Origin: Bacteroidota bacterium
GTDB lineage: Bacteria; Bacteroidota; Bacteroidia; Chitinophagales; UBA10324
Reading direction: 5' to 3'
Assembly (NCBI GenBank): GCA_014190575.1
Contig: BJGQ01000010.1
Coordinates: forward strand, 42,092 to 80,811
DNA length: 38,720 bases
Part shown: positions 30,351-38,115 of the stretch, piece by piece
Layout: each line of letters begins with the position of its first letter
Position numbering within the stretch: position 1 is the stretch's first letter
Notes under the pieces: generated by a model
Seen by the model: only the letters and a program-made list of their open reading frames with translations
Database searches by the model: none
What the model was told of the DNA's origin: nothing
Made by a program: the position numbers and the translations under genes

Positions 30351-32609
30351 TTATTCATTCTTCACCTGATTATACAATTGCTGAAACTCAACATTGTCGG
30401 GCATCACTTGTGTGAGGTTTAAAAAATATGGAAGTGCTTCAGCTTTTCGTTTGCGATTGTAATAAAATATTGCAGTTACATAATTGAGGTCAACATCATT
30501 GGCATCAATCAACAATCCTTTCTTGTAAATTTTTTCTGCTTCAGCATCGCGCTTCAATTTTTCCATAAACAAACCATAGTTGTAAAACACCTTTGTGTTT
30601 TTTGAATTGGATGCTGCTTTAACAAAATAGTTCAACGCTGAATTATCATCATTCAATTCAACATTCAGCAAAGCGAGAAAATAATTTACCTGTGCATTAT
30701 CAGGTTCAATTTCCAGCGCAGTTTTCAATTGCTTTAAAGCATTCTGCGGTTCTCCAATGTCATCATACATCGATGAAAGGTTCAAGCGAGCTTGCACCAA
30801 CAAACTATCCATCTTTATTGCAACTATGTAATCTTCTTCTGCATTGTGGTAATTTTTAATTTTCACCTCGGCATCGGCCTTCATCATTCTGCTGCTTGGC
30901 TCAGAAGAATTTTTTTCAAGGAAGCTCAACAATTCTTTTTGTGATGAAGTAAACGAAGAACGAAAATCAGTATTTAAACTATCAGCATATTGAAGAAACA
31001 AATCAGCAGTAGCAATGCGAATGGCTTTCACTTTATCATTCAGTAAAACTGAAGCCTCTTTTTTCCATTGTTGCAATGGATAAAATTTTAAAGAGTTCAA
31101 TGCCTCATACCGAACCTGAGCATCTTCATTTTTCAAACCATCTAATAAGAAAGAAATATTTTTTACATCATTTGCAAATGACATATAATACAAAGCAGTT
31201 GCATGAATAATTGTTGGAACATTGGTATCAGGCACACATAATTTTTGCAGGTATTTTGCTGCTGCAAAATCCCCAAAGCTTCCTGGGATTAAATCATCAC
31301 TGAAATGATAACTTCGATTCGGGCCAAACCATTTTATTATTTGTGACGAAGCCCACTGCGCATTTTTTTCAGTGTGGCAATTGTTACATGCATTCGGAGT
31401 TCCGTATTTCAAACTCTGGTCGGGTCGTGGAACACGAAAACTATGATCGCGTCGCACATCATTTCCCATATAAATTTTCGATGGCATGTGGCAGTTGATG
31501 CATTGCGAACCTTCAGAATTTATTGCATGAAAAGTATGAGCCGGTGAATCCAGATTTTTATTGTGACACGAAGTGCAAAGAGAATTTCCAATCAGTATTA
31601 ATTTTCCACTATGTGGATTATGACAATTGCTACACTTCACATCGTGCATAAACATTTTACTCTGCGCAAAAGAGCTGAACTCATAATCTTCTTCATCAAT
31701 TTGCCCGTCGCGCTGGTATGCAGGAGTGTGTGGAGTTTCCGGAATAAAATGATTGAGCAATTGCAATGTTTGAAACGGACTTTCATCAATCGCTATTCTC
31801 CGGCTGTGGCAAGGCGCGCAGGTTGTGATTTGTTCTTTTGAAGTTTGATTTAGATGAAACAACAACAACGAACCGGAAATCCTTTTTCCATTTTTAAAAT
31901 CAGTTGAAGAAATATAATCAACATGTTTTTTTCCTGAACCATGACAACTTTCGCAACTCACATTTACACCTGACCAGGTTGTATGAAAAGTATCAGCAAC
32001 GGAATTATAATTTGTTTGAAGGTTCGTGGAATGACAACTTGCGCAGGAGGAATTCCAGTTTTGCGCACGACCGGTCCAGTGTAACCAATCATGTGAAGCA
32101 ATAATTTGATTGGGAGATTGATGAAACCATATTTTTTTATTTGTATCCCAACACTGCCGCATCATCTGCATTCTTCCACCCGGAAACTGAACGAGGTATT
32201 GTTGCAACGGATGAAAACCGAAAGTGTAAATGATTTCAAAATCCTGATTGCTTCCATCTGCACCCTGTGTATTGATAAAAAAATTTCCATCGCGTTTGAA
32301 GAAATGTGAAGTCACTCCATCAGCAGTAAAAGTTGAATTATTAAAATCGCCAAGCACTGAACTGTCAGTTGCCGGAAGCATGGAATGATAGTGGTCAGAA
32401 ATTTTCCAGTCGGATAATTCTTTTGCGTGACAAGAGCCGCAAACTTTATCGCCAACAAATACAGGTGAAGGATTTATAGAATCACTTCCAATTGAATTAT
32501 TTTCTGTTGAAGGATTTTTACAGGAATAAAAACTATTGATAAGGATATTCAGAAAAAATATAAACGCGATAGCTGAAAGAATAAATTGAGGTTTATTCTT
32601 TCTCATCAT
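30351..32609 (-). CDS. Octahaem c-type cytochrome with HEAT/TPR C-terminal half
   Basis: This 752-residue exported cytochrome starts with a hydrophobic leader ending in FYSC30, a possible but non-ideal lipobox. Eight CxxCH motifs lie between residues 57 and about 410 (CGSCH, CASCH, CESCH, CAPCH, CSNCH, CTSCH, CINCH, CNNCH), in the manner of cytochrome c554-like proteins. The rest, about 440-752, is helical with HEAT-like (DAQVRYEALNSLKFYPL) and TPR units (PQNALKQLKTALEIEPDNAQ). Such fusions are common in Bacteroidota and Planctomycetes, and their redox partners are mostly unknown. It is a single gene with no obvious nitrogen- or sulfur-oxide reductase beside it. Confidence 0.9.
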   Translation of the reverse strand: MMRKNKPQFILSAIAFIFFLNILINSFYSCKNPSTENNSIGSDSINPSPVFVGDKVCGSCHAKELSDWKISDHYHSMLPATDSSVLGDFNNSTFTADGVTSHFFKRDGNFFINTQGADGSNQDFEIIYTFGFHPLQQYLVQFPGGRMQMMRQCWDTNKKIWFHQSPNQIIASHDWLHWTGRAQNWNSSCASCHSTNLQTNYNSVADTFHTTWSGVNVSCESCHGSGKKHVDYISSTDFKNGKRISGSLLLFHLNQTSKEQITTCAPCHSRRIAIDESPFQTLQLLNHFIPETPHTPAYQRDGQIDEEDYEFSSFAQSKMFMHDVKCSNCHNPHSGKLILIGNSLCTSCHNKNLDSPAHTFHAINSEGSQCINCHMPSKIYMGNDVRRDHSFRVPRPDQSLKYGTPNACNNCHTEKNAQWASSQIIKWFGPNRSYHFSDDLIPGSFGDFAAAKYLQKLCVPDTNVPTIIHATALYYMSFANDVKNISFLLDGLKNEDAQVRYEALNSLKFYPLQQWKKEASVLLNDKVKAIRIATADLFLQYADSLNTDFRSSFTSSQKELLSFLEKNSSEPSSRMMKADAEVKIKNYHNAEEDYIVAIKMDSLLVQARLNLSSMYDDIGEPQNALKQLKTALEIEPDNAQVNYFLALLNVELNDDNSALNYFVKAASNSKNTKVFYNYGLFMEKLKRDAEAEKIYKKGLLIDANDVDLNYVTAIFYYNRKRKAEALPYFLNLTQVMPDNVEFQQLYNQVKNE

Positions 32610-32703
32610 TTCAAAAACACAATTGTATTTCGTGAAAATATTTTGAAATAAAATAAGTCAACATAAATTTTGTATTTCATTATCAAATTATCAAATCACC
32701 ATT

Positions 32704-32756
32704 CTTCGACAAGCTCAGAATTGTTAGCATGCGCCGTCATACTGAGTTTATCGAAG
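32704..32756. repeat. REP-like inverted repeat overlapping the ispG 3' end
   Basis: The arms CTTCGACAAGCTCAG (32704-32718) and CTGAGTTTATCGAAG (32742-32756) are complementary apart from two G-T type positions, with a 23-nt centre. The sequence is of the dispersed CTTCGACAAGCTCAG type; a further arm occurs at 38096-38108. The right arm lies inside the ispG reading frame, whose stop is at 32737-32739. The hairpin could also act as a terminator for ispG. Confidence 0.75.
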
Positions 32757-34704
32757 TGTCCACCCAATCGCCATTCTCCTTTATCAAATTAATTAATTCA
32801 TCAACTGCCGTTTCAGTATTGATACTTCGCTTCATAATGTCTTTTCCTTTATACAAAGTAATTTTTCCGGGGCCGCTTCCAACATATCCATAATCAGCAT
32901 CGGCCATTTCGCCGGGGCCATTTACAATGCAACCCATAATGGCAATCTTCATACCTTTCAAATGATTGGTGACTGCACGAATTTTCGCAGTAGTTTCTTG
33001 TAAATCAAAAAGTGTGCGACCACAACTGGGGCAACTGATGTATTCTGTTTTTGAAATCCGCTGACGGCAACCTTGCAGAATTCCGAAGCACAAACGATTT
33101 ACATTTTGCGAAAGTTGATTATCGGCTTTCAGCCACACACCATCGCCAAATCCATCTAACAACAATGCTCCAAAATCTGTAGCTGCATGAAGAGAAAGTT
33201 CATCAGATGAAAGATGATTGTATTCGCGCTTGATAATTACCGGGCACAAAATTTTTTCGTTCAGCAATTCAAAAATTAATCTTCGTTGCTGCATCATGCC
33301 ATTTGTGTGAGTGGAAGAAATAACAAGCACACAATTATTTTGTTCTTCTAATTTTTCAAGCACTGAATCTGAAAACTCATCCAACGAAATTTTTATAAAA
33401 TTTAATGATGGAGAAAAAACTGTTTCAGTTAAAAATTCAGTTGCAGTTAATAATGGAAATCTTTTTTCACTACTGCCGTTGTTGGTGTTTTCACCAACAA
33501 CTTCCAGCCACGATTTATAATTCTGAATCAACCCCAGTGTTCCGGGAATTTCAAAATCAACTTTGTGAATTCCGGTGTAGATATAATCTGCGGCAGTATC
33601 ACTGATATTCCATTTATCGCTCGCTTCATCGTAATTATAACCAATCGGAATAAAAGATGAATGAGAAATATTTCGCTCAGCACTGCAATCGGCAATTACA
33701 ACCGGAACTTTGTGTGCACCAATATTTTTAATTGCATTGGTTTCTCTTCTTAAATAATGAAACGGGTCAATCGGATTTTCTTTGATAGATGGAACAACCG
33801 GCGTTTCTCTTTTTAAAGAATATCTATCAGCTAAAATTTTCGCAACCGGAATTTCAAACTCAGGGTCTTCGGTGAGCGACACGCGAATGGTATCGCCCAA
33901 TCCATCTTCCAGTAATGTTCCGATTCCGATAGATGATTTTATTCTTCCGTCTTCGCCATCACCGGCTTCTGTTACTCCAAGATGCAATGGATAATTTCGT
34001 CCGGTCTTCATCATTTCATGCACGAGCAAACGATACGCCTGCACCATCACCTGCGTGTTGCTTGATTTCATGCTCAGCACAATGTTCTGATAGCCGAGGT
34101 CCTCAGCAATATCCAGAAATTCAAAAGCACTCATCACCATTCCCATTGGTGAATCGCCGTATCGACTCATGATTCTATCGCTCAACGAACCGTGATTGGT
34201 ACCGATGCGCATTGCAGTTCCATGCTCTTTGCAAATTTTTACAAGAGGAGAAAATTTTTCTCTGATGCGCTCCAACTCTTCAGTGTATTCTGCATCGGAG
34301 TATTCCAGAGTTTGAAATTTTTTCTTGTCGGCGAAATTTCCAGGATTCACTCTCACCTTCTCTACTATACGCGCAGCCACTTCAGCAGCATTGGGTGTGA
34401 AATGAATATCGGCAATCAGCGGAGTTTTATATCCGCGCGCCAGCAATTCTTTTTTTATGTTTTCTAAATTCTTTGCTTCATTAATACTCGGAGCAGTGAT
34501 ACGCACCAACTCACAACCTGCCTCAATCATTTTAATACTTTGCTCAACAGTAGCATTGGTATTCATGGTATCAGTGGTGGTCATGCTTTGCAACCGAATT
34601 GGGTTGTTGCCACCGATTCCCACATCACCAATCATTACTTCACGGGTGAGAAATCTGGAGTAGGCAGTTAAACTGTTGCAATATTTTTTATCAGAAATAT
34701 TCAT
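32737..34704 (-). CDS. ispG: 4-hydroxy-3-methylbut-2-enyl diphosphate synthase, long form
   Basis: This enzyme makes HMBPP in the MEP route to isoprenoids and needs a [4Fe-4S] cluster. The start is taken as ATG at 34704 (655 residues); TTG at 34713 is possible but falls between the promoter and the ATG. The N-terminal TIM barrel (RLQSMTTTDTMNT, ADIHFTPNAA, VRVNPGNF, MRIGTNHGSLSDR) is followed by a large insertion (about 290-530), typical of Bacteroidota, Chlamydia and plants. The cluster domain then follows with C558-PS-C561, and C592 and E599 in GCIVNGPGE. E. coli IspG is about 372 residues. The last six residues (TSINSV) are encoded by the arm of a repeat element. Confidence 0.95.
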   Translation of the reverse strand: MNISDKKYCNSLTAYSRFLTREVMIGDVGIGGNNPIRLQSMTTTDTMNTNATVEQSIKMIEAGCELVRITAPSINEAKNLENIKKELLARGYKTPLIADIHFTPNAAEVAARIVEKVRVNPGNFADKKKFQTLEYSDAEYTEELERIREKFSPLVKICKEHGTAMRIGTNHGSLSDRIMSRYGDSPMGMVMSAFEFLDIAEDLGYQNIVLSMKSSNTQVMVQAYRLLVHEMMKTGRNYPLHLGVTEAGDGEDGRIKSSIGIGTLLEDGLGDTIRVSLTEDPEFEIPVAKILADRYSLKRETPVVPSIKENPIDPFHYLRRETNAIKNIGAHKVPVVIADCSAERNISHSSFIPIGYNYDEASDKWNISDTAADYIYTGIHKVDFEIPGTLGLIQNYKSWLEVVGENTNNGSSEKRFPLLTATEFLTETVFSPSLNFIKISLDEFSDSVLEKLEEQNNCVLVISSTHTNGMMQQRRLIFELLNEKILCPVIIKREYNHLSSDELSLHAATDFGALLLDGFGDGVWLKADNQLSQNVNRLCFGILQGCRQRISKTEYISCPSCGRTLFDLQETTAKIRAVTNHLKGMKIAIMGCIVNGPGEMADADYGYVGSGPGKITLYKGKDIMKRSINTETAVDELINLIKENGDWVDTSINSV

Positions 34705-34710
34705 TACGCG

Positions 34711-34718
34711 CAAAAGTA
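34711..34718 (-). promoter_or_regulatory. Bacteroidota -7 box immediately before ispG
   Basis: The minus strand reads TACTTTTG, an exact TAnnTTTG. Only six bases separate its end from the ATG at 34704, so transcription would start at or next to the start codon. This supports ATG 34704 over TTG 34713. Confidence 0.5.
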
Positions 34719-38082: not shown

Positions 38083-38095
38083 TGAATAGTGTGCA

Positions 38096-38115
38096 TCGAC
38101 AAGCTCAGCATGACA
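38096..38115. repeat. Single arm of the REP-like repeat after sucD
   Basis: TCGACAAGCTCAG followed by CATGACA, 13 bp after the sucD stop, matches the left arm of the element at 32704-32718. No complementary arm is seen close by, so it is a solo or decayed copy. Confidence 0.55.

Follow-up and report, generated by a model that had tools for sequence, protein, structure and literature searches.

Short palindromic repeats that make the end of a host gene have been described before. In the available text of Di Nocera et al. (2013, PMC3733652), GTAG REPs already supply gene ends, and because of this precedent the event reported here at ispG is known in kind. The same text describes CGTC REPs, whose tag is often TGTC and which form head-to-head dimers, have no dedicated transposase and are reported from Bacteroidetes among other phyla. 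It also records, without an obvious explanation, that in some REP families dimers tend to join unlike partners (PMC3733652). We describe a palindromic repeat that crosses the 3′ end of ispG in a 38,720-nt stretch of a Bacteroidota genome (GCA_014190575.1, contig BJGQ01000010.1, positions 42,092 to 80,811), hereafter the window.

The 3′ end of ispG and its empty counterparts

The frame is GcpE/IspG by profile search (PF04551 at 420.4 bits, cut-off 32). Its translated end is KENGDWVDTSINSV*, and its product matches the solved enzyme 3noy (IspG) up to residue 645. From 32760 down to 32737 the minus strand reads GAC ACT TCG ATA AAC TCA GTA TGA. The initial annotation held that a repeat gives ispG its last codons and its stop, and the letters of the arm, the frame and the TGA all agree with it. 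The arm does encode TSINSV, as claimed there, but the gene-strand repeat unit reaches further and encodes part of the preceding D (codon GAC) as well as the stop TGA. The stop had also been placed at the centre of the element; it belongs instead to one unit's conserved head, at the spacer's edge and off the exact centre (Table 1). The inverted repeat (32704-32721 / 32739-32756) has arms of 18 nt, 83% complementary, with 17 nt between them, and one complementary pair has been lost in the gene-side unit (CA vs TA). AT-rich TTTGATAAT / TTTGATGAT repeats occur after several gene ends in the genus, often immediately beside the palindromic repeat; we saw them at window positions 32680-32698, in the ispG 3′ flanks of L040 and L041, and also at L287 and L288.

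Table 1. Features of the window discussed in the text (strand "." where the feature has no single orientation).
Feature	Position	Strand	Remarks
ispG (gcpE), 658 codons + stop	32737..34713	-	ORF, GcpE profile, structure match
ispG stop TGA	32737..32739	-	taken from the conserved unit head (mostly TGACA)
Head-to-head dimer of the repeat	32701..32759	.	59 bp with outer complementary bases
Gene-side unit, ACAC-TTCGATAAACTCAG-TA-TGA	32737..32759	-	encodes part of D, then TSINSV and the stop
Second unit, ATTC-TTCGACAAGCTCAG-AA-TTGTTA	32701..32726	+	head decayed from TGACA
Spacer between the 18-nt arms	32722..32738	.	17 nt
TGA matching the native stop by eye	32696..32698	-	probable only, as aligners differ
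Further copy of the repeat, one unit	38094..38114	+	core with one mismatch, about 13 bases past a TAG stop

Among the named relative loci listed, 74 of 79 carry 3-15 residues after the last W, the remaining five being partial or without a W; our protein has 8, and at least eight residues are found past the last W in 16 of the 74 loci listed. Judging from these sequences, residues beyond the last conserved tryptophan most likely vary freely in IspG, with the tail unconstrained. The new tail would then be harmless, the conserved domain being intact and the tail length normal.

The initial annotation could be challenged by relatives that lack the repeat yet have the same C-terminal residues. We searched for such cases and found none in the genus: all five other genomes lack both the repeat and TSINSV at the end of ispG. 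Their IspG proteins, 87-94% identical to ours, end GDWVEGI, GDWVEG, GDWVEN, GDWIEN and GDWIEI, that is, GDW[VI]E plus one or two residues. At up to one mismatch the unit was also found at 0 of 84 relative ispG loci among those listed (a set that includes five duplicates of the genus genomes, spans about 1.5 kb on each side per locus and draws on 80 of 144 related loci).

Our genome, G001 and G005 share the same downstream neighbour gene (ATGAGAAAGAA.. start in the alignment), which makes the ispG locus orthologous among them. In G005 the gene ends GAG GGC TGA TTTGATGATTTG, and our own UTR past the repeat, GGTGATTTGATAATTTGATAATGAAA, is similar to the G005 UTR, GGCTGATTTGATGATTTGATGATATGGTAATTTGATAATGAAA. 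The initial annotation proposed that the repeat took the place of the native 3′ end. Inspection by eye puts the old TGA and UTR right after the repeat; two alignments, on the other hand, match our flank some bases later in the G005 UTR and would thus permit a small replacement, the exact empty site being uncertain by about 3 bases and obscured by the repetitive flank. The old stop was likely displaced by the insertion, with a small replacement of the native 3′ end being possible.

Copies of the repeat and the genes they end

Counting copies of the arm, a check suggested at the outset, gave 37 exact matches to the core TTCGAYARRCTCAG in the genome vs 0 for the pattern read backward, and 58 vs 1 for the reversed control at up to one mismatch; some one-mismatch matches are plainly ordinary coding sequence. 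In the whole window, the two ispG arms are the sole exact core matches, and loose matches are uninformative there because the 11 found at up to three mismatches are as many as chance would give (10.8). Many of the 55 units at up to one mismatch lie between ORFs, as delimited by a crude ORF caller and with several of the units being ordinary coding sequence. Exact core copies number 86, 4, 22, 10 and 28 in the other five genus genomes. Counting our own genome, core plus head (TTCGAYARRCTCAGNNTGACA) is present in 9 of the 16 family genomes searched and, in a patchy fashion, in 33 of the 296 phylum genomes sampled; the backward control of TTCGAYARRCTCAGNNTGACA gave one match in one genome (G251). 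Apart from one unrelated listing, the core 14-mers had no match in the open-access papers searched.

The TGTCA tag, as the complement of TGACA right after the core, is present in 31 of our 37 units and in 72 of 84 in G001. The loci examined contain 39 head-to-head and 12 tail-to-tail dimers, counts that take in orthologous and clustered copies and are hence non-independent. At L229 (G001:C351:770-3484), ten exact units are packed within about 1 kb, with alternating orientation.

The repeat had also been called mobile, and filled and empty sites at three loci of the genus bear this out. Besides ispG, a dimer follows a 255-aa ORF in G000, G001 and G003, is decayed in G002, and has an empty counterpart in G004 and G005. 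Another follows a 162-aa ORF in G000 and G001, with empty sites in G003, G004 and G005 (G002 is without a close orthologue). No target duplication was seen at insertion. A RAYT-linked REP was considered and rejected, given that no unit lies beside the two Y1 transposase (Y1_Tnp) loci of our own genome at up to two mismatches (one at three in each).

We then asked how the units end reading frames, using 184 of the 187 exact units of the genus (distinct 40-mers away from locus ends). Twelve of them end open frames of at least 90 codons. In six cases the stop codon abuts the unit, sharing its first A or lying just before it; these are L003, L172, L189, L196, L198 and L255, a pattern suggestive of a preference or tolerance for stop codons as targets. 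The other six have their stop within the unit: four short frames (L036, L200, L237 and L156, 64-108 codons from the first start), which are probably not genes, ispG, and one G005 frame. The latter is uncharacterised, has 143-177 codons and ends ACA CTT CGA TAA in the core, in a frame different from that of ispG; its nearest homologue (G004, 66%) has another end and no repeat. There (L266 / L153, G005:C2, around 24502), a gene-like frame takes its TAA and its last residues, TLR, from the unit. Counting ispG, the genus thus has two stops that come from the repeat, each read in a different frame. A repeat-made stop is nevertheless rare, since 2 of 184 genus units stop an ORF of more than 140 codons.

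A complementary dinucleotide within units

Read on the other strand, the unit is TGTCA-xy-CTGAGCTTGTCGAAG-y'x', with two variable positions on either side of the core. Our own exact units are complementary at these positions in 36/37 and 35/37 cases, where shuffles give 10.1 and 15.1; neither count was reached in any of 10,000 shuffles, which leave the relatedness of copies in place. The 147 units from the five other genus genomes behave alike (131 and 133 complementary vs 39.8 and 59.6). Outside the genus, among the matches listed, both pairs are complementary in 130 of 150 units from 13 genomes (150 of 221 matches used) vs 49.8, and shuffling within genomes gave a maximum of 70 in 5,000. About ten different complementary dinucleotides occur; therefore, a single inherited change cannot give the pairing. 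The pair -4/+3 shows no covariation in our own 37 units, where its T hardly varies, and position -5 and beyond are unconserved in the same units.

Two ideas about the unit were rejected. A stable hairpin of the single unit is at odds with the folding of four units, whose energies of 0 to -1.9 kcal/mol do not surpass those of shuffles; three of the four form a stem of 4-5 bp with an 11-nt loop, and the ispG unit forms none. Copying of the dinucleotide from the target is at odds with the ispG target of the relatives, which is without CA at that place, in what is one case only. The two units of a dimer carry the same dinucleotide in 1 of 39 head-to-head dimers vs 6.0 expected, the dimers being not all independent. 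At an orthologous locus the pairing is CG/CG in G001 and CG/GG in G000; this erosion suggests that the pairing may be set at the birth of the copy and not maintained later.

We offer one conjecture, which we regard as quite unlikely to hold as a whole: a freely varying two-base-pair "bar code" would be nearly always complementary in each copy while the 14-base core stays fixed, the pairing would be set when the unit is copied, fold-back synthesis may rewrite one arm from the other, and unlike codes would be favoured in dimers. The complementary dinucleotide is odder than the ispG event, and a patchy phylum-wide family with such a bar code provides many copies on which to test copying ideas for transposase-less REPs.

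Explanations and published counterparts

We consider it very probable that the neutral insertion of a mobile, non-autonomous palindromic repeat at the end of ispG explains both the tail and the stop. A head-to-head REP-like pair would have been inserted, presumably by transposition, within the final one or two codons of ispG, in our species and after its split from the sister species. The head of the unit reads TGA(CA) on one strand, and an in-frame insertion would stop the protein after about six repeat-encoded residues. The enzyme would accordingly be made with a TSINSV tail, and the change would be neutral and kept because residues beyond the last conserved tryptophan seem to vary freely in IspG.

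Alternatively, the repeat may be kept because its hairpin has a function where ispG ends (stabilising the mRNA, attenuation towards the cytochrome-like gene that lies downstream, or processing of the end), with the tail as a side effect. The dimer folds as RNA at -20.5 kcal/mol vs -13.8 in shuffles (z -2.7, 2/200 equally good), 6 of 184 genus units abut a stop, and REPs by 3′ ends are reported in the available text of PMC3733652 as mostly transcribed. However, any inverted repeat is expected to fold so strongly, a T-run after the element is absent and five relatives manage without the repeat, which makes this reading rather unlikely. A known RNA family was rejected as well, an Rfam search of 32500-33000 with E up to 1 matching none. 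It is also conceivable that the tail itself was selected, for instance by altering the stability or activity of IspG. The open frame and the normal tail length agree with this, neither of them directly, but IspG tails are unconserved, TSINSV is seen in our own species only and its letters are simply the repeat's own, so that we find selection on the tail highly improbable.

The ispG insertion is read from one assembly of 91 contigs, and repeats are where joins fail. A repeat-bearing read wrongly joined onto ispG is still very unlikely, as in G001 and G005 a single unbroken locus is orthologous to both flanks of the repeat. A chance inverted repeat with a native tail might draw on a distant IspG (L089, 56%) that contains SINSV, which we had considered as a shared native tail; there it sits in a longer ESINSVENE, with other codons and no repeat, and is put down to chance. 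Against 37 exact copies and a control of 0, this last explanation is already refuted and keeps next to no probability. The ispG case offers a clear-cut pair of filled and empty sites, where a repeat carrying its own TGA has terminated a conserved metabolic enzyme with no apparent loss, and it illustrates why such repeats can settle safely at gene ends.

Regarding published families, the following comparison refers to the available text of each source. The initial label of REP-like holds loosely: the repeat has the general REP feature of a short palindromic unit dispersed in many copies, with its 37 exact cores and the complementary dinucleotides within units, but it does not conform to the tested defining features of the two published REP super-families. 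GTAG REPs are, like the repeat described here, short palindromic units near gene 3′ ends, often in head-to-head dimers; they differ in that the tag here is TGTCA and not GTAG, with the stop TGA read from the complement of the tag (PMC3733652). GTAG/RAYT-linked REPs flank a tyrosine transposase gene, whereas none adjoins the units here, as judged at the two loci in our own genome (PMC3733652). From CGTC REPs we recover the CGTC/TGTC tag and the predominance of head-to-head dimers; their stem of 8-9 bp, loop of 4-5 nt and unpaired CCA tail contrast with a computed single-unit stem of at most 5 bp, an 11-nt loop and no conserved tail (PMC3733652). Tag and stem therefore match neither super-family cleanly. 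The preference of some published REP families for unlike partners is also seen here, in the 1 of 39 alike dimers vs 6.0 expected.

REPINs (Bertels and Rainey 2011, PMC3116915) are likewise inverted REP doublets, the doublet being the mobile unit; compensatory changes are described there for the hairpin of the doublet, whereas here they fall inside the individual units. The ERIC/MITE insertions and Rickettsia palindromic elements reviewed by Delihas (2008, PMC2229807) resemble our case in being palindromes fused in frame to conserved proteins; unlike it, they are about 100-150 bp long and mostly provide a segment inside the protein or at its terminus. Taken together, the ispG event is a clear new example, of modest interest, of a kind already described for other bacterial repeats.
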